A DNA stretch of 64,000 nucleotides, taken from positions 124,001 to 188,000 of the forward strand of contig JARJHS010000010.1 of NCBI GenBank assembly GCA_029269725.1. The letters run 5' to 3'. The stretch is from Pollutibacter soli. GTDB lineage: Bacteria; Bacteroidota; Bacteroidia; Chitinophagales; Chitinophagaceae. The number at the start of each line of letters is the position of its first letter. Within the stretch, counting starts at the first letter, position 1. Both the position numbers and the translations under genes were made by a program. The notes below the pieces were generated by a model. It was given only the letters and a program-made list of their open reading frames with translations. It did no database searches and was not told the origin of the DNA. This document shows, in pieces, positions 1,253-64,000 of this stretch.

Positions 1253-3635
1253 ATTCTGACCGCAAACTTCTCACCGGATTGGCTAGTGCTGCTTTAACCG
1301 CCTGGAAACTTACAGTCAGCAACGCAATTACAATTGCCAGTACTCCTGCAAGTACAAAAACCCACCATTCAATACTGATGCGATAGGAATATCCCTGCAG
1401 CCATTTATTCATTGCGTACCAGGTAACAGGTGATGCAATAACAAAAGAAATCAGTACCAGTTTCAGAAAATCTTTCGACAATAAGTTGGTTACACTGAAA
1501 ACCGATGCACCGAGTACTTTTCTTACGCCGACTTCTTTTGTTCTGCTTTCAGCCATGTATGCTGCGAGACCGAATAGTCCAAGACAAGAGATGAATATCG
1601 TAAGACCGGCAAACAGCGCAGCGAGTTTACTTGTTTGCTGCTGATCACGGAATTTACGTGCATAAGATTCGTCTGTGAATATTGCTTCAAACGGGTATTG
1701 CGGATTGTATTTGGTAAAAATGGCTTCCATACTTTTTAAATTCGTCGCAGTCCCTCGTGCAGGATTCAGTTTCGCATGTATCACCTGCCCGTAGTCCATT
1801 CCAGGTCCGAACACCATTACAGGATTAATTTTTTCCTGGAAAGGTGACTCAAGAACAAAATCTTTGATTACGCCAATCACATGGTAATAATTTGTGTCGC
1901 CTACATAATGAATGTTGGTACCAATGGGTTTTTTCAGACGCATAGCTTTCACTGCTGACTCATTAAGCAGTACAGCAGTACTGTCCGTTTTGAAATTGTA
2001 TACATCAATGTCGCGTCCATCAAGCAATTGCACACCTGTTGTTTTTGTGAATTCAGCATCTGAGCCAAGCCGGATAAAATCAATTTTTTCATCAGCCTTT
2101 GTACTTCCTTCCCAGGCAAATCCCCAGCTATCGCTCCAACGCTGTGTAATGGGGTTTGAGGACCTGGTGACTGAAACGGCGGTGCCACTCGAAAGCAATT
2201 CATTCCTGATGGCCTGGTAGTGTTTGTCCACTTCACCTTGCGTAAACGTATACACGAGATTATTTCGATCATATCCGCTCTGCCGGTTTAATCCATATTG
2301 CAACTGGCGCACAACAATCATGGTAGAAATGATCAGGATAATGGCGAAAGTAAATTGTACTGCAACAAGTATTTTACGCGGAGCAATTAATGCGTTCGCT
2401 TTTTTGAATGTTCCTTTGAGTACAGCCACCGGTCTGAATGAAGAGAGATAGAACGCCGGATAGCTTCCTGCAACAATTCCGGTAAATACAATAAAACATA
2501 CAACGGTAAACCAGAAAACCGGGTTTGTGAATGGAATGAAAAGTTGTTTATTGACAAGTTGATTGAAACCTTTTAAGCTTAACGTAACAATCAGCAGCGC
2601 CAACAGAAAGGAAATGAAACTCAGAATAATACTTTCGGTAAGGAATTGCAGAATCAGCGATTTCTTTCCTACCCCAACAACTTTCCTGATGCCTACTTCT
2701 TTCGCACGTTTTTCACTGCGCGCCGTACTCAGGTTCATAAAATTGATACAGGCGATCAATAATATAAATGCAGCTATTATTCCAAACAGGCGTACAGTTT
2801 CTATCTGCCCGCCAGTGAGTCTGCCGTCTTCAGATCGTCCATACAGATAATACCTATTCAAAGGTTGTGTGAATACTTCTGTTGTCACCTGGTCAGCTGA
2901 GCCTTTTGAATGATCAATAGTGATTGTCCTGATTTTCTTATCAAAATTAGCTTGCGAAGCACCTGGCTTGAGAAGTGTATAAGTTCTTACTGAATTATTT
3001 CCCCAATGCTTGTCATCCCAATCGAGTTTACGCATGTATGACCAGGGTAAAAGATATTCGAATTCAAATAATGTATTGTTGGGAAGATCTTTCAACACTG
3101 CCGTTACCGTACAGTTGTTTACACTATCAATGCGAATCGTTTTTCCCAGTGCCTTTTCATTCCCAAACAGTGCTTTAGCAAATTTTTCTGTCAGCACAAT
3201 GCTGTAGCTGTTTTGCAAACTGGTAGCAACTGTACCTTCAAGTAAGGGGAAACTGAAAATGTTAAGAAAGCTGCTATCGGCGAAAGCTCCTCTTTTATTC
3301 ATCCGTTTCTCACCTGAAGTGAGCAGAAATGTGATATTGTTGAAGCGCGTGAAATCTTCTACTTCCGGATAATCCGCTTTTAGTGTTGGTCCGAGAATTT
3401 TAGGCGTGCTGTTCCATGCCCACTTGTTTCCCTCCGGATCTGTGTCGCGATTGTACATTACATAAATCCTATCACCTTTTTCATGAAAACGTTCCATACT
3501 CAACTGGTTCTGGATCCATAAAAGGATGAGCATCGCTGCTGCCATTCCCACAGCCAGACCAGTGATGTTGAGAAATGAATAACCTTTGTTACGTGCAAGG
3601 TTTCTGAAGAGGGTTTTGAAATAGTTATTTATCAT
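1251..3635 (-). CDS. FtsX-like ABC transporter permease (MacB-type, 8 predicted TM)
   Basis: A 794-residue inner membrane permease with the full family layout: TM1 at about residues 20-42, periplasmic MacB_PCD domain to about 280, FtsX core with three to four TM segments (about 284-305, 335-360, 375-402, 424-446), second periplasmic domain, and a second FtsX core (about 665-690, 710-735, 755-780). Both cytoplasmic motifs are present (KRAKEVGIRKVVG and RTKEVGVRKVLGAS). The start MINNYFKTLF matches its tandem neighbours. No nucleotide-binding subunit is encoded nearby, so the partner ATPase must be elsewhere or the protein acts differently. Its promoter side is occupied directly by a period-7 array that begins one base upstream of the ATG. 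Substrate cannot be told from the sequence. Confidence 0.93.
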   Translation of the reverse strand: MINNYFKTLFRNLARNKGYSFLNITGLAVGMAAAMLILLWIQNQLSMERFHEKGDRIYVMYNRDTDPEGNKWAWNSTPKILGPTLKADYPEVEDFTRFNNITFLLTSGEKRMNKRGAFADSSFLNIFSFPLLEGTVATSLQNSYSIVLTEKFAKALFGNEKALGKTIRIDSVNNCTVTAVLKDLPNNTLFEFEYLLPWSYMRKLDWDDKHWGNNSVRTYTLLKPGASQANFDKKIRTITIDHSKGSADQVTTEVFTQPLNRYYLYGRSEDGRLTGGQIETVRLFGIIAAFILLIACINFMNLSTARSEKRAKEVGIRKVVGVGKKSLILQFLTESIILSFISFLLALLIVTLSLKGFNQLVNKQLFIPFTNPVFWFTVVCFIVFTGIVAGSYPAFYLSSFRPVAVLKGTFKKANALIAPRKILVAVQFTFAIILIISTMIVVRQLQYGLNRQSGYDRNNLVYTFTQGEVDKHYQAIRNELLSSGTAVSVTRSSNPITQRWSDSWGFAWEGSTKADEKIDFIRLGSDAEFTKTTGVQLLDGRDIDVYNFKTDSTAVLLNESAVKAMRLKKPIGTNIHYVGDTNYYHVIGVIKDFVLESPFQEKINPVMVFGPGMDYGQVIHAKLNPARGTATNLKSMEAIFTKYNPQYPFEAIFTDESYARKFRDQQQTSKLAALFAGLTIFISCLGLFGLAAYMAESRTKEVGVRKVLGASVFSVTNLLSKDFLKLVLISFVIASPVTWYAMNKWLQGYSYRISIEWWVFVLAGVLAIVIALLTVSFQAVKAALANPVRSLRSE

Positions 3636-54857: not shown

Positions 54858-56537
54858 ATGAGTTTCGAAGCATTAGGGATTGAAGAAGGTCTTCTGAAAT
54901 CAATCCAGGCTTTAGGTTTTACAACACCTACACCTATCCAGGAACAGGCAATACCGGTTCTGCTTAGCGGCACAAAGGATTTTGTAGGTTTGGCCCAGAC
55001 AGGCACAGGAAAGACAGCAGCATTTGGATTGCCGTTACTTCAATTGGTAGACAAAACACAAAAACATCCGCAGGGTTTGATCATCTGCCCTACACGTGAA
55101 CTGTGTGTTCAGATTGCAAAAGATCTGACTTCATTTAAAAAGCATTATTCCGGATTGAGTGTAGTTGCCGTTTATGGTGGTACTTCAATCAGTGAACAGA
55201 TCCGCGATCTCCGTAAGGGACCGCAAATCGTTGTCGCAACACCCGGAAGATTGATTGATCTGATAGAAAGAAAGGCAGTGGAGTTGGAACATATCCACTA
55301 CGTTGTCCTCGACGAGGCGGATGAAATGCTCAACATGGGTTTCAGGGAGGATATCGAATTTATCCTGAAGAATACTCCTAACCGCCAGAGCGCATGGTTG
55401 TTCAGTGCAACCATGCCACCGGAAGTAAGACAGGTGAGCAAAAAGTTCATGACTTCACCTTTTGAAATCACCATCGGGAAAGTAAACGCGGGAAATGTAA
55501 ATATCGATCACCAGTACTACCTGGTGAACAATATCAACCGTTACCAGGCATTGAAACGCATCATCGATTTCAATCCCGGAATCTACGGTATCATTTTCAC
55601 CCGTACTAAAGCCGATGCACAAACGATAACAGAATCATTGATTCGTGAAGGGTATGAGATTGAGGCATTACATGGCGATCTTACCCAGGCGCAGCGCGAT
55701 AAAGTGATGGCGCGCTTCCGCGAGAAAAGTCTGCAATTGCTGATAGCCACAGATGTTGCTGCGCGAGGTATTGATGTTCAGGGTATCACTCATGTAATCA
55801 ATTATGAATTACCTGATGACCCGGAAGTATATACCCACCGCAGCGGTAGAACGGGTCGCGCAGGAAAAAGCGGTATTTGTATTTCTTTGGTTACTCCACG
55901 AGAAAGTTATAAGCTGAAGCAGATTGAAAGAATGGTGAACAGCCGTTTCCATAAAATGGATATCCCCACTGGTAAAGATGTTTGCCGTAAGCAATTCTTT
56001 TATTTTATTGATAAGCTGTTGCTGGCGGATATCAGTCATGGCGAATACGAGGCATACCTGCCGCTGCTGAAAGAGAAATTTGAAGATGTTGCGAAAGAAG
56101 AAATTCTGCAGCGCGTCGCCGCATTGGAATTCACCCGTTTCCTGCAGTATTATGAAAATGCCGCTGATCTGAATGTGCGCGAGGAAAGAAGAGTTGAACG
56201 CGGCGCCAGTACTTCCCGGGATACCAAAGGCCGCTCTTTCGGTCGGGAATCATCATCGCGTAGCGGAGGTGGTGGTTCCAATAAAAGACTATTTGTCAAC
56301 CTTGGGACGAAGGACGGATTTTACAAAGCAAGTTTCCTTCAGTTTATTCTTGATATGAGTGATCTGAAAAAAGAAGTGTTGGGAAGGATCGATATGAAGG
56401 AAATGAACAGCTGGATTGAGATTGATTCTTCAGCAGCCAATAAAATGATCAAGGCCCTGGATGGTAAAAAATTCAAAGGGAGAATGATCAGGATGAACGA
56501 TGCGGATTCCGGTGGTCCAAGAAAATCCAGACAATAA
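54858..56537 (+). CDS. DEAD-box RNA helicase with DbpA-type RNA-binding tail
   Basis: 559 residues. Q motif (FTTPTPIQEQAIP), motif I AQTGTGKTAAF, PTRELC, TPGRL, DEAD at about residue 152, SAT, then the second RecA domain with HRSGRTGRAG. Residues about 430-470 are a basic, Ser/Gly-rich linker (RGASTSRDTKGR). The C-terminal 75 residues (LFVNLGTKDGFYKASFLQFIL, shown in part; IGRIDMKE-like; IEIDSSAANKMI) form a DbpA-type RNA-binding domain. Expected role: ribosome assembly or mRNA turnover in the cytoplasm. Confidence 0.95.
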   Translation: MSFEALGIEEGLLKSIQALGFTTPTPIQEQAIPVLLSGTKDFVGLAQTGTGKTAAFGLPLLQLVDKTQKHPQGLIICPTRELCVQIAKDLTSFKKHYSGLSVVAVYGGTSISEQIRDLRKGPQIVVATPGRLIDLIERKAVELEHIHYVVLDEADEMLNMGFREDIEFILKNTPNRQSAWLFSATMPPEVRQVSKKFMTSPFEITIGKVNAGNVNIDHQYYLVNNINRYQALKRIIDFNPGIYGIIFTRTKADAQTITESLIREGYEIEALHGDLTQAQRDKVMARFREKSLQLLIATDVAARGIDVQGITHVINYELPDDPEVYTHRSGRTGRAGKSGICISLVTPRESYKLKQIERMVNSRFHKMDIPTGKDVCRKQFFYFIDKLLLADISHGEYEAYLPLLKEKFEDVAKEEILQRVAALEFTRFLQYYENAADLNVREERRVERGASTSRDTKGRSFGRESSSRSGGGGSNKRLFVNLGTKDGFYKASFLQFILDMSDLKKEVLGRIDMKEMNSWIEIDSSAANKMIKALDGKKFKGRMIRMNDADSGGPRKSRQ

Positions 56538-56560
56538 TTTTTTTGTTTCGGTCAGTTCAC

Positions 56561-56568
56561 TATATTTG
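56561..56568 (+). promoter_or_regulatory. -7 promoter element TATATTTG of the aromatic operon
   Basis: Exact TAnnTTTG match, followed seven bases later by the ATG of the leader peptide. A TTG lies about 19-20 bases upstream (near 56543), which is in the usual -33 range. Transcription would start at about 56573-56575, so the leader peptide mRNA has little or no 5' UTR. Confidence 0.7.
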
Positions 56569-56574
56569 TAGGGT

Positions 56575-56649
56575 ATGACAAGCAATAAAGTATTCACAGG
56601 GTTTTATTTTTACTTTTATTTTACCGGCAAGCCGGGAATACTTTGTTGA
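56575..56649 (+). CDS. pheL-like: Phe/Tyr-rich attenuator leader peptide
   Basis: 24 codons with sequence MTSNKVFTGFYFYFYFTGKP followed by GILC and TGA. Residues 10-16 are seven alternating Phe and Tyr codons, with one more Phe at residue 7. The gene is too short for normal gene calls. The position between a promoter and a terminator, just upstream of pheA, is that of a transcription attenuation leader peptide: when charged tRNA-Phe or tRNA-Tyr is scarce the ribosome would stall here. No homologs could be checked. The gene symbol is used only to indicate the type of leader. Confidence 0.82.
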   Translation: MTSNKVFTGFYFYFYFTGKPGILC

Positions 56650-56686
56650 ATAAAACGAAAGTGAAAACACAACATAGTATCCCGGC
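56631..56686 (+). promoter_or_regulatory. antiterminator pairing of the aromatic operon attenuator
   Basis: GCCGGG-A-ATACT (56631-56642) can pair with AGTATCCCGGC (56676-56686), 11 base pairs with one bulged A. The 3' strand of this helix contains the 5' arm of the terminator (56679-56686), so the two structures exclude each other. The 5' strand lies in the last leader codons, 8-28 bases downstream of the Phe/Tyr run; a ribosome at the stop codon would cover it. Confidence 0.75.
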
Positions 56687-56707
56687 CAAAAGCCGGGATT
56701 TTTTTTT
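56679..56707 (+). terminator. attenuator terminator of the aromatic operon
   Basis: ATCCCGGC (56679-56686), loop caaaa, GCCGGGAT (56692-56699) and an unbroken run of nine T (56699-56707). The T run ends at the base before the first possible pheA start codon. A terminator inside an operon leader, before its first structural gene, is the mark of attenuation. Confidence 0.88.
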
Positions 56708-57643
56708 ATGATAGATCAAACAATAGAAATACAAGAAATGACCGCGCAGCAGAGTAAAAAGATTGCTGAAAAATCGAAGTCAGAATCCGGCAAATCTACT
56801 GGCGACGGCCCTGTGCGTGTTGCCATCCAGGGCTATGAAGGAAGTTTTCACCAGGTAGCGGCCTGGACTTTTTTTGGGAAGTCCGTAGAAGTAATACCCT
56901 GTGCAACATTCCGGGAAGTAGTAAAGAGAGCGTCTGCCGATGGCCCGGAAACAGGTGGCGTAATGGCAATTGAGAATTCAATTGCAGGAAGCATTCTTCC
57001 GAACTACAATCTTCTTCAGCAATCTCAGCTGCATATTACCGGTGAAGTATACCTGCAGATTAACCAGAACCTGCTTGTCAACCCCGATGTAAAACTGGAA
57101 GATATCCGCGAAGTTCATACTCACCCGATGGCGCTTCTCCAGTGCATGGAATATCTTGATAAATACAACTGGAAGCTGATCGAAACCGAGGATACAGCGT
57201 TGAGTGCAAAACATGTACATCAGCATCATAGTAAACATATTGCAGCAATCGCAAGCACATTGGCGGCAGAATTGTTTGATCTGAAAGTGATTGCCCCGAA
57301 TATCCACACGATGAAAAACAACTACACCCGTTTTCTCATACTCGATAATAAACAGAAACAGGACTATCTTCCTGAAGCCGACAAAGCCTCTGTTAATTTT
57401 CATACAGATCATTCCAGGGGAAGTCTTGCCCGCGTGCTCACAACAATTGCTGACGAAGGCATTAACCTGAGTAAACTCCAGAGTTTCCCCATACCAGGAA
57501 CTGATTTCAAATACAGTTTTCATGCTGATATGGAATTTGATGAATTGAATCAGTTCCAGACTGTCATAAATAAATTAAAAAACCTCACCGGAGAAATTCG
57601 CGTACTCGGTGTTTACAAACGTGGACAATTAAACCAACATTGA
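56708..57643 (+). CDS. pheA: prephenate dehydratase
   Basis: 311 residues at the longest. It converts prephenate to phenylpyruvate in phenylalanine synthesis. The catalytic domain starts with VAIQGYEGSFHQVAAWTFFG at about residue 38; GVMAIENSIAGSI and NNYTRFLIL (Thr-Arg-Phe catalytic motif) follow; the C-terminal ACT domain has GSLARVLTTIADEGINLSKLQSFPI (shown in part), the ESRP-like site being LQSFP. The ATG at 56708 directly touches the terminator T run; a second ATG at 56738 follows an A-rich stretch of the type Bacteroidota prefer and may be the true start. It ends in TGATG overlap with the next gene. Confidence 0.94.
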   Translation: MIDQTIEIQEMTAQQSKKIAEKSKSESGKSTGDGPVRVAIQGYEGSFHQVAAWTFFGKSVEVIPCATFREVVKRASADGPETGGVMAIENSIAGSILPNYNLLQQSQLHITGEVYLQINQNLLVNPDVKLEDIREVHTHPMALLQCMEYLDKYNWKLIETEDTALSAKHVHQHHSKHIAAIASTLAAELFDLKVIAPNIHTMKNNYTRFLILDNKQKQDYLPEADKASVNFHTDHSRGSLARVLTTIADEGINLSKLQSFPIPGTDFKYSFHADMEFDELNQFQTVINKLKNLTGEIRVLGVYKRGQLNQH

Positions 57644-58845
57644 TGATCAGTACTGCTAAAAGACTTGAAGGAATCGGTGAGTATTATTTCTCGACAAAAC
57701 TGAGAGAAATCGATAACATGAATAAATCCGGTGAGCCTGTGATTAACCTTGGCATAGGTAGTCCTGATCTGCCTCCACATCCGGATGTAATAAAAGTGTT
57801 GAGGGAAGAAGCCGGTAAACCTAACGTGCATGCCTACCAGTCATATAAGGGATCTCCTGTGTTGCGCAAAGCCATCAGCGAGTGGTACAACAAATGGTAC
57901 CACGTGACATTGAATCCGGATACAGAAATTCTCCCGCTGATAGGAAGTAAGGAGGGTATTATGCACATCTGCATGACTTACCTGGATAAGGGAGATTTCG
58001 CTTTGATTCCCAACCCGGGATATCCAACTTACAGAAGTGCAGTGAAACTTGCTGGCGGAGAAATTATTGAGTATGCGTTAAGTGAAGAAAAGCATTGGTT
58101 TCCCGATCTCGGGCAACTGGCAGCATCAATAAGAGAAGCGGAACAGCGCAGTGAAGGGAAAGTGAAATTGTTATTCGTTAACTATCCCCATATGCCTACA
58201 GGTCAGTTGCCTGATGTGGAAAAAATGAAGGCGCTGGTGGAGTTTGCAAAGCAACAGGATCTGCTGATTGTTCATGATAATCCTTACAGTTTTATTCTGA
58301 ATGAAAAACCGGAAAGCCTACTTGCTGTTCCCGGTGCTATGGATGTTGTACTTGAATTGAATTCACTCAGCAAAAGCCATAATATGGCTGGCTGGCGTCT
58401 TGGTGTTCTTTCTGCCAAACAGGAAAGGATAGACGAAGTACTACGTTTCAAAAGCAACATGGATAGCGGTATGTTTCTCCCCGTTCAGCTGGCTGCTGCA
58501 ACTGCGCTGGCCTTGGATAAAAGCTGGTACGAGGAAGTGAATGCTGTGTACCGCAGAAGAAGAGAATTGGTATTTCATCTGCTTGACCTGATCGGTTGCA
58601 CTTACAGCAAGGATCAGGCTGGAATGTTTGTATGGGCGCCTATCCCGGATCGTTACCAGGATGGATACGAATTGAGTGACGAATTACTGTATAAAACAAG
58701 GGTATTCATTACACCTGGGGGAATTTTTGGCGATGCCGGAAAAAACTATATACGTGTAAGTCTTTGCGCCACTGAAGCAAAACTGGAAGAAGCGATAAAA
58801 AAAGTTCAGGCATTGAAAGATAAAAAACAGACTGCGGAAGTATAA
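57643..58845 (+). CDS. class I/II PLP-dependent aminotransferase
   Basis: 400 residues from the ATG at 57643, which overlaps the pheA stop by one base. INLGIGSPDLPPHP at the N terminus, PNPGYPTYRSAV, VNYPHMPTG, HDNPYSF and the PLP lysine in NSLSKSHNMAGWRLG show a fold-type I aminotransferase of the aspartate aminotransferase group. Its place between pheA and tyrA suggests it transaminates phenylpyruvate and 4-hydroxyphenylpyruvate, the last step to Phe and Tyr; a role in other amino acids cannot be excluded. Confidence 0.92.
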   Translation: MISTAKRLEGIGEYYFSTKLREIDNMNKSGEPVINLGIGSPDLPPHPDVIKVLREEAGKPNVHAYQSYKGSPVLRKAISEWYNKWYHVTLNPDTEILPLIGSKEGIMHICMTYLDKGDFALIPNPGYPTYRSAVKLAGGEIIEYALSEEKHWFPDLGQLAASIREAEQRSEGKVKLLFVNYPHMPTGQLPDVEKMKALVEFAKQQDLLIVHDNPYSFILNEKPESLLAVPGAMDVVLELNSLSKSHNMAGWRLGVLSAKQERIDEVLRFKSNMDSGMFLPVQLAAATALALDKSWYEEVNAVYRRRRELVFHLLDLIGCTYSKDQAGMFVWAPIPDRYQDGYELSDELLYKTRVFITPGGIFGDAGKNYIRVSLCATEAKLEEAIKKVQALKDKKQTAEV

Positions 58846-58854
58846 GACAGGAAT

Positions 58855-59703
58855 ATGGAACGCAAACGAATAGCCATTATCGGAATTGGACTTATCGGCG
58901 GATCACTCGCATTGCAATTGAATGAAAAAGGATTCGCTTCAAAAATAATTGGTGTTGAAGCGAGCGAAGAGCATGCAAAGAAAGCATTGGAATTAGGGTT
59001 GGTGGATGAAGTATTGCCTCTTGATGAAGCGATTGCTGGAGCGGATGTCATTTTTCTCGCCATCCCCGTAGATAAGATGGTGGGCCTGTTACCATCAATA
59101 CTGGACAAAGTGGAGAAGCAGATTGTTATCGATATGGGTTCAACAAAAGATCTGTTGTTAAAAGCGGTGGCAGATCATCCAAGGAGAAAGAGATATGTAG
59201 CGACACATCCCATGTGGGGTACTGAATACAGCGGTCCTGCGGCGGCGGTAAAAGGCGCATTTGAAAATAAAGCCGTGATCTTTTGTAATGAGTCGGATAG
59301 TGATGCGGATGCGCTAGCCTGGACGAGGGATATGTACAAAGGAATCGGAATGCATCTGTTATCGATGGAAGCAGAATCACATGATCTGCATGCTGCATAC
59401 GTAAGTCATATTTCGCATATCACTTCATTTGCGCTGGCTAACACTGTACTTGAAAAAGAAAAAGAAGACGACGCGATTTTCGAGATGGCAAGTGCGGGTT
59501 TTGAAAGTACGGTTCGTTTAGCAAAAAGTAACCCGGCGATGTGGGTGCCGATACTGATGCAGAATAAAGAAAATGTGTTGGATGTTTTAAATGAACATAT
59601 TTCACAGCTGCGAAAATTTAAAAGCTGCCTGGAAAAAGAGAACTGGGACTATCTCTCGGAACTTATCAGCGGGGCCAACAAAATAAAAAAGATTATTCGT
59701 TGA
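58855..59703 (+). CDS. tyrA: prephenate dehydrogenase
   Basis: 282 residues. It oxidises and decarboxylates prephenate to 4-hydroxyphenylpyruvate. IAIIGIGLIGGSLALQL is the dinucleotide-binding motif; DMGSTKD and ATHPMWGTEYSGP carry the conserved substrate residues including the catalytic His. No ACT domain is present, so allosteric feedback by Tyr through that domain is not expected. It follows the aminotransferase gene by nine bases. The TGA stop lies in CGTTGAACG, at the start of a repeat tract. Confidence 0.94.
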   Translation: MERKRIAIIGIGLIGGSLALQLNEKGFASKIIGVEASEEHAKKALELGLVDEVLPLDEAIAGADVIFLAIPVDKMVGLLPSILDKVEKQIVIDMGSTKDLLLKAVADHPRRKRYVATHPMWGTEYSGPAAAVKGAFENKAVIFCNESDSDADALAWTRDMYKGIGMHLLSMEAESHDLHAAYVSHISHITSFALANTVLEKEKEDDAIFEMASAGFESTVRLAKSNPAMWVPILMQNKENVLDVLNEHISQLRKFKSCLEKENWDYLSELISGANKIKKIIR

Positions 59704-59748
59704 ACGGCCGGCGTTCAACGTTTAACGTTCAACGTTTAACGTAAAACT
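59700..59748. repeat. period-7 array (TTCAACG/TTTAACG) inside the aromatic operon
   Basis: Units ttcaacg, tttaacg, ttcaacg, tttaacg, taaaact (59714-59748). It fills most of the 59-bp gap between tyrA and the DAHP synthase gene, so these repeats also occur within operons. Confidence 0.88.
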
Positions 59749-59762
59749 TTTAACTTTATACA

Positions 59763-60851
59763 ATGCAAACAATCGAATCAGATATGAAATCAATCGCTCA
59801 GGAGAAATGGGCAAAGCGTCCGTTGATCATCTCAGGACCATGCAGTGCAGAAACAGAAGAGCAACTGCTTGAAACAGCAAAGCATTTAGCCGATACCGGT
59901 AAAGTGGATATGCTTCGCGCCGGTATCTGGAAACCAAGAACCAAGCCCGGAATGTTCGAAGGTGTTGGTGCAAAAGGATTACCCTGGCTGCTTCAGGCAA
60001 AAAAAATGACCGGTCTGCCAACAACTGTTGAAGTTGCAACGGGCAAACAGGTGCAGGATGCACTCACATTTGATGTTGATGTTTTGTGGATCGGAGCGCG
60101 TACTACGGTGAATCCGTTCAGCGTACAGGAAGTGGCTGATGCTTTGCGCGGTGTTGATATTCCGGTATTGATAAAAAATCCTATTAATCCTGATCTCGAA
60201 CTCTGGAACGGTGCCGTTGAAAGAGTAGCACGTGCTGGTGTTAAACAGATCGGATTGATACATCGCGGATTTTCATCTTACGGAAATACGGAATACCGCA
60301 ATGCACCGATGTGGCACCTGGCGATTGAAATGAAAAGAAAAAATCCGGGAATGATGATCATCAATGATCCATCACATATTTCCGGTCGCAGAGATATACT
60401 GCTCGATGTTGCACAGAAAGCAATCGATCTTGATTTCGATGGTCTGATGATTGAAAGTCATATCGATCCGGATAAAGCATGGAGCGATGCAAAACAACAG
60501 GTTACTCCGGAAAGACTTGCTGAAATCCTGTCAGAAATCGTATGGAGGAAAGAAGATGTGTCTTCAGAATTATTTCATGCCGCTTTGGATAAACTCCGTG
60601 AGCAGATCAACCATATCGATGATGAATTGATGCAATTGCTGGGTCAGCGCATGAAGATTGCTGACAAAATCGGTGAGTATAAAAAGAATAACAACGTCAC
60701 CATTCTGCAGACCAATCGCTGGAACCAGATCCTCGAAAGAGCTTTTCAGAAAGGTTCACCGCTGGGTTTGAGCAATGAGTTTATCACCAAATACCTCGAT
60801 GCAGTACACATGGAAAGTATCAATCATCAGAATAAAATAATGAATGACTGA
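59763..60851 (+). CDS. bifunctional DAHP synthase / chorismate mutase
   Basis: 362 residues. Residues about 15-260 are a type I beta-like DAHP synthase (PLIISGPCSAETEEQL, RAGIWKPRTKPGMFEG, WIGARTTVNPFSVQE, GLIHRGFSSY, INDPSHISGRR, MIESHIDPDKAWSDAKQQ with key His/Glu). Residues about 275-362 are an AroQ-type chorismate mutase (LREQINHIDDELMQLLGQR). The fusion makes the first committed step of the shikimate pathway and the branch-point reaction in one protein, and the mutase domain can act as a regulatory sensor of prephenate, as known for similar fusions. It follows tyrA in the attenuated operon. Confidence 0.95.
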   Translation: MQTIESDMKSIAQEKWAKRPLIISGPCSAETEEQLLETAKHLADTGKVDMLRAGIWKPRTKPGMFEGVGAKGLPWLLQAKKMTGLPTTVEVATGKQVQDALTFDVDVLWIGARTTVNPFSVQEVADALRGVDIPVLIKNPINPDLELWNGAVERVARAGVKQIGLIHRGFSSYGNTEYRNAPMWHLAIEMKRKNPGMMIINDPSHISGRRDILLDVAQKAIDLDFDGLMIESHIDPDKAWSDAKQQVTPERLAEILSEIVWRKEDVSSELFHAALDKLREQINHIDDELMQLLGQRMKIADKIGEYKKNNNVTILQTNRWNQILERAFQKGSPLGLSNEFITKYLDAVHMESINHQNKIMND

Positions 60852-60873
60852 TTCATTCCGGTGATTCTTCAGT

Positions 60874-61293
60874 ATGAATAAAACATTCCTGTACGTGCAT
60901 GCAATCTGGGCAGTGGCTGAAAAGGCTGCTGTATTGTCCAAGCCTATACGCTCTGTTTTGTTTGCCCATCTGAAGAAGAATGCGGATGAAAAAGGTATTC
61001 GTGTGCTGGAAGTAAATGGTGGTGAAGATCATGTACATGTATTGGTGAGTTTACATCCGGCACAAAATCTTTCACAGGTAATCCGGCAGTTGCGGGCAGA
61101 GACTTCAGACTGGTTAAATGCGACCCAGTTATTACCGGAAGAATTCCACTGGGCCGAAGACTATATGGCTTATTCAGTAAGTCCCGGTGCATTAAAACAG
61201 GTGATACAATATCTCGAACGCCAGGAAGAATACCACAAAACCAAAACCCTGGATGCGGAACTGGAAGTTTTCGATGTGAATGTCGAAAAGTAG
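60874..61293 (+). CDS. HUH (Y1) transposase-like protein in the aromatic operon
   Basis: 139 residues with the fold of IS200/RAYT-type Y1 transposases: YVHAIWAVAEK at the N terminus, the HUH motif in NGGEDHVHVLVSL, and the region of the nucleophilic Tyr in VIQYLERQEEYHK. No accompanying IS ends or target hairpins were found next to it. It starts 22 bases after the DAHP synthase stop and ends 27 bases before aroB, in the same orientation, so it would be transcribed with the operon. It may be domesticated or a recent insertion without ends; REP-associated Y1 proteins elsewhere process hairpin repeats. Confidence 0.85.
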   Translation: MNKTFLYVHAIWAVAEKAAVLSKPIRSVLFAHLKKNADEKGIRVLEVNGGEDHVHVLVSLHPAQNLSQVIRQLRAETSDWLNATQLLPEEFHWAEDYMAYSVSPGALKQVIQYLERQEEYHKTKTLDAELEVFDVNVEK

Positions 61294-61320
61294 AATTTCA
61301 CCAGGGAAACAGATTTGATA

Positions 61321-62355
61321 ATGACTCAATTAAAAGCCGGAGTGGTTAAATATAAGTTTTCGACTGCGACAGTTAACTATTATTTCAATAGTAAGTTTTC
61401 TGAGCTGGGCAAATTGGTTTCCAGAAAAACAACTGTCCTGATTACTGATGAGAATATTTATCGTCTTCACGAATCAAAATTCAAAGGCTGGAACTCTATA
61501 GTACTCAAGCCCGGCGAAGAATACAAAGTACAGGCGACAGTTGATTCGATCATTGAACAGCTGATCGTTTTCGAAGCGGACAGGAATACAACACTTATCG
61601 GCATTGGCGGTGGAGTGATTTCAGATCTTACGGGGTATACCGCATCGATTTATATGCGTGGGATACGATTTGGGTTTGTGCCCAGCACGTTGTTGTCGAT
61701 GGTCGATGCCGCGATTGGTGGCAAGAATGGGATCGATGTAGGTGAGTACAAGAACATGGTGGGGATAATTCGTCAACCGGAATTTTTGCTTTTTGATACC
61801 AGCTTACTGCAAACGCTACCCGAAAAGGAATGGTCAAATGGTTTTGCAGAAGTTATCAAGCATGCCTGTATACGTGATGCGGCTGCATTCCGTTTACTTG
61901 AGAAAACAGATATAGATGGTTTAAAAAAAGACAAGAAGGCACTGAGTTCATTGATCGAAAGAAATGCACGTTTAAAGTCGGGTATAGTTCAGAAAGATGA
62001 ATTTGAAAAAGGTGAACGTAAATTGTTGAATTTCGGGCATACCATTGGTCATGCTGTTGAAACGCAGTACGAACTGATGCATGGTGAAGCGGTGGCGATA
62101 GGGATGACCTGTGCAAGTCGCTTTTCGGAATTGTTGCTGGGATTTAATCAGACAGAAAGAATCACTAACCTTCTTGAAAAGTATAAATTGCCAACCTGGG
62201 CCGAATTTGATGCGGAAAAGGTGTTACAGGTCCTGAAGATGGATAAGAAGCGTTCGGGCAACACAATGAATTTTATTTTACTAAAGAAAATCGGCGAAGC
62301 TGTAATTGTTCCCATCCCGCTGAAACAGCTGGAGAAAATGGTGAAATCGTTATAG
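61321..62355 (+). CDS. aroB: 3-dehydroquinate synthase
   Basis: 344 residues from the ATG at 61321 (a TTG two codons earlier also exists). It closes DAHP to 3-dehydroquinate with NAD+ and Zn2+. GIGGGVISDLTGYTAS is the NAD-binding motif; FVPSTLLSMVDAAIGGKNGI (substrate loop), a metal Glu in EVIKHACI, and the zinc histidines in NFGHTIGHAVE and LMHGEAVAIGM are present. It belongs to the attenuated aromatic operon. Confidence 0.96.
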   Translation: MTQLKAGVVKYKFSTATVNYYFNSKFSELGKLVSRKTTVLITDENIYRLHESKFKGWNSIVLKPGEEYKVQATVDSIIEQLIVFEADRNTTLIGIGGGVISDLTGYTASIYMRGIRFGFVPSTLLSMVDAAIGGKNGIDVGEYKNMVGIIRQPEFLLFDTSLLQTLPEKEWSNGFAEVIKHACIRDAAAFRLLEKTDIDGLKKDKKALSSLIERNARLKSGIVQKDEFEKGERKLLNFGHTIGHAVETQYELMHGEAVAIGMTCASRFSELLLGFNQTERITNLLEKYKLPTWAEFDAEKVLQVLKMDKKRSGNTMNFILLKKIGEAVIVPIPLKQLEKMVKSL

Positions 62356-62375
62356 CAATCGCTAACAAACAGATA

Positions 62376-63674
62376 ATGCAGATAACAGTTTTTCCCTCGA
62401 AAGTGAAGGGCGTGCTCCACGCACCAAAATCGAAAAGTTCGATGCAGCGCGCATGCGCGGCAGCATTGTTACATCGTGGCATAACCGAGATTTATGAGCC
62501 AGGCTTCAGTAACGATGATCTTGCAGCGCTCGATACGATTGTCAAACTGGGGGCGGAGATCCTGAGTAATACCAGCGAAAAGATCTTAATAAGAAGTATC
62601 GGTATAAATCCAGTTTCCTCGGAAATTCATTGCGGGGAAAGCGGATTGGGTATCCGGATGTTCACACCTATCGCATCGCTGAGTGATCAGCCATTGCGTA
62701 TTTCCGGATCAGGAAGCCTGGTAACAAGACCCATGCATTTTTTCGATGAGATATTTCCGCAGCTCGGAATTTCTATTCAGACATTGAATGGAAAACTTCC
62801 ACTGGATATCAAAGGGCCATTAAAGCCGGCGAATATTACTGTCGATGGTTCATTGAGTTCACAATTTCTTACTGGCTTACTGATGGCATACTCAGCTGCG
62901 GAAGCTTCAGATGTTACCATCACAGTAAATAACCTTACCAGCAAACCTTATATCGATCTTACACTCGATGTGATGAAGAAATTCGGAATGAAAATTCCCG
63001 AAGTGAAAAATTTTGAAACCTTTTATTTTCCCTCCGCGGCAAATAAAGCGTCAGCCGAAAATATCGCATATACAGTTGAAGGCGATTGGAGTGGGGGAGC
63101 TTTTCTATTAGTCGCAGGTGCCATTGCGGGAGGTCTGAAAGTAAAAGGGCTGCAGGCGGATTCTACACAGGCAGATAAAGCAATTCTGGATGCATTGGAT
63201 AATGCGGGTGTGAAGTTGAATATAACTGAAAATGAAATCGATGTTATTCCTGGTGTTCTGAAAGCATTTGATTTTGATGCAACCGAGTGTCCGGATCTTT
63301 TTCCTCCGTTGGTTGCGCTGGCCGCAGCATGTGATGGTCAGACTACCATTACCGGAGCAAAAAGACTCACACATAAAGAAAGCGATCGCGCGACCGTATT
63401 GAAGGAGGAGTTTGGAAAACTGGGCATTCTGGTAGAACTCGATGGCGATCTGATGCACGTGCATGGTGGAACGCAGGTGCATGCTGCAATTACACATTCG
63501 CATCACGATCATCGTATAGCCATGGCCGTGGCTGTAGCAGGATTGATTGCTGATGGCCCTGTTGTAATCGAAGATGCGCAGGCAGTAAAAAAATCTTATC
63601 CGGAGTTTTACCGGCACCTGGTTTCAGCAGGAGTGAAGGTAGTAGAAGCAGTTGAGTCGAATTTGATTAAATAA
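62376..63674 (+). CDS. aroA: 3-phosphoshikimate 1-carboxyvinyltransferase (EPSP synthase)
   Basis: 432 residues. It joins shikimate-3-phosphate and phosphoenolpyruvate. PSKVKGVLHAPKSKSSMQRA is the N-terminal S3P site; HCGESGLGIRMFTPIA (normally N-A/S-G-T) is a divergent form of the PEP-binding LFLGNAGTAMR region; SSQFLTGLLMA, GDWSGGAFLL, and LTHKESDRATVL follow; HHDHRIAMAVAVAG is the C-terminal signature. The GESG motif puts it with the Bacteroidota forms. The gene starts 20 bases after aroB. Confidence 0.95.
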   Translation: MQITVFPSKVKGVLHAPKSKSSMQRACAAALLHRGITEIYEPGFSNDDLAALDTIVKLGAEILSNTSEKILIRSIGINPVSSEIHCGESGLGIRMFTPIASLSDQPLRISGSGSLVTRPMHFFDEIFPQLGISIQTLNGKLPLDIKGPLKPANITVDGSLSSQFLTGLLMAYSAAEASDVTITVNNLTSKPYIDLTLDVMKKFGMKIPEVKNFETFYFPSAANKASAENIAYTVEGDWSGGAFLLVAGAIAGGLKVKGLQADSTQADKAILDALDNAGVKLNITENEIDVIPGVLKAFDFDATECPDLFPPLVALAAACDGQTTITGAKRLTHKESDRATVLKEEFGKLGILVELDGDLMHVHGGTQVHAAITHSHHDHRIAMAVAVAGLIADGPVVIEDAQAVKKSYPEFYRHLVSAGVKVVEAVESNLIK

Positions 63675-63688
63675 AAGATGAAATTCTG

Positions 63689-64000
63689 ATGAACAGATTT
63701 GGAGATATATTTTCTGTCAGCATTTTTGGCGAATCACATGGAGAAGGTGTAGGTATTGTTGTAGATGGTGTGCCTGCTGGAATTCCTTTGACGATGGATG
63801 ATTTTCATGTGGATATGGAGCGAAGGAAAGGAGGGACGCAGAAAGGCACCACGCCACGTCAGGAGGATGACCTTCCGATTTTCAAAAGCGGTCTGTTTAA
63901 CGGGAAAACCACGGGCGCACCGCTGATGATGTTGTTTGAAAATAAAAATACAAGGTCAGGCGACTATGAAAAACAACGAGATGTTCCCCGCCCCGGTCAC
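63689..64000 (+). CDS. aroC: chorismate synthase, N-terminal part (runs off window)
   Basis: The first 104 residues are present and the frame continues beyond base 64000. MNRFGDIFSVSIFGESHGEG is the AroC start with the FMN/substrate His in GESHG; DMERRKGGTQKGTTPRQEDD carries the conserved Arg cluster (R-R-x-G/Q); quoted in part. It makes chorismate with reduced FMN. It follows aroA by 14 bases, completing the run aroB-aroA-aroC in the operon. Confidence 0.95.
   Translation, partial: MNRFGDIFSVSIFGESHGEGVGIVVDGVPAGIPLTMDDFHVDMERRKGGTQKGTTPRQEDDLPIFKSGLFNGKTTGAPLMMLFENKNTRSGDYEKQRDVPRPGH

Follow-up and report, generated by a model that had tools for sequence, protein, structure and literature searches.

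What controls the genes for aromatic amino acid synthesis that begin with pheA, and to which amino acids does this control respond? The locus lies in a window of 64,000 nucleotides, the whole stretch of DNA analysed here, from a genome of 6.1 Mb that is split over 37 contigs. Judged by pheA, the named contigs nearest to it include Filimonas, Niastella, Flavihumibacter, Sediminibacterium and Chitinophaga, and on that ground the family is taken to be Chitinophagaceae. The first gene, pheA (56708-57643; prephenate dehydratase, PF00800, E 7e-56), has its putative start at the first ATG of the frame. It is followed on the same forward strand by genes for a class I/II aminotransferase (PF00155), prephenate dehydrogenase (tyrA; PF02153/PF20463) and a DAHP synthase-chorismate mutase fusion (PF00793 and PF01817), together spanning 57640-60851, and then by aroB (3-dehydroquinate synthase, PF01761/PF24621), aroA (EPSP synthase, PF00275) and the start of aroC (chorismate synthase, PF01264) at 61315-64000. 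Between the fusion gene and aroB, a domain match identifies a forward-strand ORF of 139 aa (60874-61293) as IS200-like Y1_Tnp. The original prediction placed eight genes under a single switch. Eight ORFs do stand in line and are presumably co-transcribed, but because one of them is the Y1_Tnp ORF, the biosynthetic genes number seven. By their domain matches, the genes suit the synthesis of phenylalanine and tyrosine alike. An inverted repeat (CGTTGAACG...CGTTCAACG) at 59698-59720, covering the tyrA end and the gap before the DAHP synthase gene, is terminator-like on the minus strand.

The region ahead of pheA is very probably a ribosome-mediated transcription attenuator that senses the charging of both Phe-tRNA and Tyr-tRNA, with a leader cistron that is itself probably leaderless.

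Architecture of the pheA leader

All features of this region lie on the forward strand. A −7 promoter box, TATATTTG (consensus TAnnTTTG), occupies 56561-56568 and is separated by six bases from the ATG (56575) of a leader ORF of 24 codons, MTSNKVFTGFYFYFYFTGKPGILC, which runs to the stop codon at 56647-56649. Codons 10-16 of this frame (56602-56622) form the run F-Y-F-Y-F-Y-F and are the putative control codons. Downstream stands an intrinsic terminator (56679-56707), made of a GC-rich stem of 8 bp between 56679-56686 and 56692-56699 (ATCCCGGC-CAAAA-GCCGGGAT, 56679-56699) and of nine T at 56699-56707, directly 5' of the first ATG of the pheA frame. The promoter element, the Phe/Tyr frame and the hairpin with its T run had all been named in the original prediction and are present in the sequence. 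So is its alternative pairing of 56631-56642 (GCCGGGAATACT) with 56676-56686 (AGTATCCCGGC), which forms 11 bp with one bulge and excludes the terminator hairpin. Direct inspection extends this antiterminator to 56631-56648 paired with 56670-56686.

A further helix had been overlooked. The minimum free energy fold of 56575-56707 (z = −3.9; 1 of 200 shuffles equally good) pairs CAATAAAGTATTC (56583-56595) with GAATACTTTGTTG (56636-56648), and the former thereby becomes strand 1 of a complete classical set of four. Strand 2 (56631-56648), which overlaps the 3' end of the leader ORF, can pair with strand 1 or strand 3; strand 3 (56670-56686) can pair with strand 2 as antiterminator or with strand 4 (56692-56699), the 3' arm of the terminator. 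The locus combines a short ORF holding a codon run for the products of the operon, mutually exclusive 1:2, 2:3 and 3:4 pairings and, at the sequence level, an intrinsic terminator before the first structural gene, as a ribosome-mediated attenuator does.

From these elements a model can be drawn, in which we infer where transcription starts, that initiation is leaderless, and that termination occurs and is relieved by starvation. RNA polymerase would start at about 56573, and a ribosome would load on the AUG, which would lie no more than a few nucleotides from the RNA 5' end. With phenylalanine and tyrosine plentiful, the ribosome would reach the stop codon and cover strand 2, allowing the 3:4 terminator to form before pheA. 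When either amino acid is short, it would stall in the F-Y-F-Y run and block strand 1; strand 2 could then pair with strand 3, the terminator would be avoided and the operon would be transcribed. Where translation fails altogether, the 1:2 helix could form, favouring termination.

Placing a ribosome on the window RNA in equilibrium folding gives a terminator probability of 0-0.01 when F7 or one of codons 10-13 (F, Y, F, Y) occupies the A site and of 1.0 with the ribosome at codons 14-16 or the stop; the ribosome-free RNA is ambiguous at 0.57. Phe and Tyr codons both fall in the antiterminating zone, which suggests an OR gate. Across the 108 family loci folded in this way, the window among them, the terminator is favoured with the ribosome at the stop in 108/108, and a stall flips it in only 41 under equilibrium folding, which ignores that the 2:3 helix may form before strand 4 is made. 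A co-transcriptional proxy discriminates poorly: the best stall exceeds 0.5 in 108/108 loci, and it still does so in 70/108 when the stretch separating the F/Y run from the terminator is scrambled, while a ribosome at the stop brings the value below 0.5 in only 34/108. Since the simulation flips few loci and the proxy separates poorly, the mechanism rests on architecture and covariation, not on simulation.

Conservation and covariation

Searches recovered pheA in 63 of the 99 genomes in a first set and in 216 of 294 family genomes, both counts including the genome of the window. The 117 family loci compared comprise that of the window, those from the first set, the top scorers of the second and 40 more chosen mostly to cover new genera; three (L006, L026, L050) have too little upstream sequence and were left out, giving 114 scored regions, of which the window is one and 112 are distinct. 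To count as a leader, an ORF had to start with ATG, span 8-45 codons and hold 6 or more F/Y within 9 residues. Every one of the 114 regions carries such an ORF upstream of pheA, as against 0/114 reverse strands and 11/2280 dinucleotide shuffles, and all 112 distinct leaders hold at least three F and at least two Y each. A terminator 3' of the leader ORF was matched by script in 108/112; in the remaining four, a hairpin with a T-rich tail becomes visible once the region is extended. A further family locus, L245, has by eye a Phe/Tyr-rich frame with a GTG start four bases 3' of TACATTTG and fails the score because an ATG is demanded.

Of 72 distinct regions taken from the order and class beyond the family, 45 qualify by the same definition (shuffles, 8/1440) and 27 show no leader by it. 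Among 80 named loci, 77 qualify, Hymenobacter and Alistipes among them. One of the 77, L215, was set aside as a chance ORF far upstream, with no such leader in the three frames shown. Of the three named loci that fail, two offer little upstream sequence (132 nt in L211, 57 nt in L240), and the third, L176, has by eye a Phe/Tyr-rich frame from a GTG four bases after TACTTTTG. Named loci and other genomes are partly the same organisms (L161 and G033, for example, have the same leader), and the sets are therefore not independent. Prephenate dehydratase itself was found in 214 of 247 genomes phylum-wide; the 30 phylum-wide loci L131-L160 stand outside the leader scoring. By sequence comparison, then, the Phe/Tyr leader is common in related bacteria.

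The helices are conserved along with the frame. In a swap test over 108 loci, the pairing energy within each genome was compared with the mean of 30 swaps between genomes, ignoring genome kinship. Own-genome pairing is the stronger in 94/108 loci for 1:2, 94/108 for 2:3 and 104/108 for 3:4, as against 44/108, 52/108 and 62/108 for the control combinations 1:3, 1:4 and 2:4. Covariation was scored on 47 loci, hand-picked from 107, with 500 shuffles per helix. The scores are 0.237 for 1:2 (shuffles 0.170), 0.105 for 2:3 (0.066) and 0.252 for 3:4 (0.134), and none of the 500 shuffles reaches the score of its helix. Paired cells in this alignment amount to 75.7%, 87.3% and 95.6%, respectively, and the percentage drops every time the helix partners are slid by 1-3 columns, a control biased in favour of the aligned structures, which were derived from one of the sequences. 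Two finer counts lie within the range of shuffles: the 1:2 pairs changed on both sides are matched in number by 133/500 and the further pair types in 2:3 by 150/500. Comparison of the sequences thus establishes the ORF, the terminator, the spacing of the promoter discussed below and three alternative helices that covary. Conservation of frame and hairpins in relatives, on which the original prediction had staked its reading as leader-peptide attenuation, supports that reading.

These comparisons bear on two other explanations of the locus. The hairpin might serve only to end transcripts of the DEAD-box helicase gene upstream (54858-56537), with pheA transcribed from a promoter of its own. As this explanation would expect, the 141 bp from the end of the helicase gene to the hairpin contain no other listed terminator-like site, but a promoter box and a Phe/Tyr ORF sit in the interval. 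That box is the only strict TAnnTTTG on the forward strand of 56001-64000, and it precedes the leader; leader and terminator occur together in the 108 of 112 family loci matched by script, and in relatives strand 2 shows covariation with both strand 1 and strand 3. All of this argues against a helicase terminator, which we regard as very unlikely. Equally improbable is a function for the small peptide itself, which is hydrophobic and rich in Phe and Tyr, with the RNA structure incidental. The ORF is maintained as a frame across the family, and the peTrpL peptide of Sinorhizobium meliloti illustrates that leader peptides can act in trans, as its report describes (PMC7298713). Against this, the sequence outside the F/Y run differs between lineages with base pairing retained, and the F/Y run itself differs in order and length.

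Promoter spacing and a probable leaderless start

In Flavobacterium psychrophilum, the sigma-A box TAnnTTTG spans −12 to −5, according to the mapping reported for that species (PMC9723704). Placed by this rule, the window transcript probably starts at about 56573, two bases before the leader ATG. The spacing is common in the family: of 112 family loci, 89 have a strict box 3-8 nt before an in-frame leader ATG, compared with 60 of 5600 shuffles, so that the leader mRNA of Chitinophagaceae is, by its promoter spacing, probably leaderless. As background, among ORFs of 150 aa or more, a strict box at a gap of 3-10 nt precedes 3 of 47 in the window and 0 of 675 in family loci, the latter loci overlapping and mostly from around the same operons.

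Outside the family, where a slightly relaxed box was sought within 45 nt, the arrangement is different. Of 45 leader loci, 25 have a gap of 16-35 nt, one has 4 nt, one has 8 nt and 18 show no box. Within the family, six Chitinophaga loci (L224-L227, L230 and L232) keep the F/Y run and have no strict box at a gap of 3-8, which may point to an origin of the leaderless arrangement within the family; the short spacing is also missing in several other family loci.

The His and Trp leaders resemble the Phe/Tyr leader in this respect. In the genome of the window, a His leader, MILNAHTHHHLFPDQVSR, was recognized by eye (locus L311, C36), with TACTTTTG four bases before its ATG, its stop 73 nt before the hisG ATG, and a hairpin and T run before hisG. 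A Trp leader (L312, likewise C36), also read by eye, starts with GTG followed by KNVSINNNWWWHSNS and contains WWW; it has a box at a gap of 4 from the GTG, a terminator-like hairpin with a T run, and its stop 89 nt before the trpE ATG. Automated scoring chose an ATG further upstream over this GTG. For His and Trp, matches occurred in 65 and 78 genomes, and the family sets are the 30 best-scoring loci of each. Among the best 30 for His, of which L332 is too short, 27 of 29 scored loci have a His-rich leader, and the gap to a relaxed box in these best-scoring loci is 4-10 in 18/27 and 14-18 in 9/27. All of the best 30 Trp leaders contain WWW, and 27 of the 30 have a gap of 4-9 to a relaxed box. 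By eye, the 350 nt ahead of the ilvD-family and homoserine-dehydrogenase genes of the same genome (48 nt for L316) show no leader; these genes are perhaps not the first of their operons, and the result is not evidence of absence.

These observations make it somewhat likely that leaderless attenuator leaders are the rule in Chitinophagaceae, apparently with the exception of Chitinophaga, whether the leader is of the Phe/Tyr, His or Trp type. In this reading, the ribosome would load on the start codon at the 5' terminus as it emerges, with very tight coupling as the result, and the Phe/Tyr leader would serve as an OR gate for the entire aromatic operon. If so, the rule would hold in a phylum that otherwise has few leaderless mRNAs: the reported shares are 5.5% in F. 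psychrophilum (PMC9723704) and, for 5' UTRs under 10 nt, about 3.7% in Bacteroides thetaiotaomicron (PMC7366714). It would suggest that leaderless initiation has been selected, in one family, for short cistrons where early ribosome loading counts most.

Relation to known attenuators

The device is of a classical kind. The enterobacterial pheA leader (pheL; Rfam RF01859, Phe_leader) likewise combines a leader ORF carrying control codons, alternative hairpins and a terminator before pheA. The window differs in carrying Tyr as well as Phe codons, in its probable leaderless start and in its Bacteroidota host; pheL, to our knowledge, has Phe codons and no Tyr codons. The Phe_leader model aligns weakly over its full length with the window at 49.8 bits, below the gathering score of 55 bits, and the window ATG precedes the aligned part, out of register with the AUG of the model. 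The window was therefore not assigned to this family, and 20 chosen relatives contain no Phe_leader at gathering score.

One switch answering to more than one amino acid is familiar from enteric bacteria, where the thr leader responds to Thr and Ile and the ilvGMEDA leader to Ile, Val and Leu; the pair in the window is Phe/Tyr, matched to a joint pheA-tyrA-aro cluster. Both enteric operons are named as attenuated in the literature (PMC1183508). The closest parallel for the start is trpL of S. meliloti, whose attenuator RNA, rnTrpL, is reported to have its 5' end at the leader ORF ATG (PMC7298713), as is predicted here. It senses Trp in an alphaproteobacterium, whereas the window leader is of the Phe/Tyr type; most of the His and Trp leaders examined in the family look alike in this regard.

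The original prediction knew of no described example in Bacteroidota, and here it must be corrected. The main text on F. psychrophilum reports strong clues for leader-peptide attenuation upstream of amino acid operons, as well as structured 5' elements of pheA and hisG that have no Rfam hit and are conserved in other Flavobacteriaceae genera (PMC9723704). The pheA element concerns the same gene in the same phylum, with attenuation proposed for amino acid operons; that main text gives no leader sequences or Phe/Tyr codons (PMC9723704). In contrast to the short spacing in Chitinophagaceae, leaders outside the family mostly have a box-ATG gap of 16-35 nt where a box is found. Short ORFs reminiscent of leader peptides are also mentioned in the B. 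thetaiotaomicron work (PMC7366714). In the portions of the literature available, no Phe/Tyr attenuator described in Bacteroidota was found beyond PMC9723704, and the comparative attenuation survey of Lopatovskaya (2010; doi 10.1134/S0026893310010164) may overlap. Within these bounds, the class of device is classical and has precedent in the phylum, and what did not appear in the literature is Phe/Tyr double control conserved across a family and beyond, together with a leaderless pattern in one family. With the gene cluster and the sensed amino acids named, the regulation of aromatic amino acid synthesis in a large, little-studied phylum becomes directly testable.

A T-box, riboswitch or protein-dependent attenuator acting through the same terminator is the least probable reading, to be given hardly any weight: such systems also use terminator/antiterminator pairs, but Rfam yields no match at gathering score in 56400-56900, with the T-box absent from the list up to E = 5, and only Flavo-1 at gathering score, twice in one locus, among 20 relatives. 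Membership in the T-box leaders was accordingly rejected for the window, which has no covariance-model match to them up to that same E value. For the Phe/Tyr leader, an element below the Rfam gathering scores in the window and the 20 relatives, a family-wide alignment now exists. The two Flavo-1 RNA matches belong to L266, a class-level pheA locus, and lie at 2704-2781 (+) and 91-166 (−).
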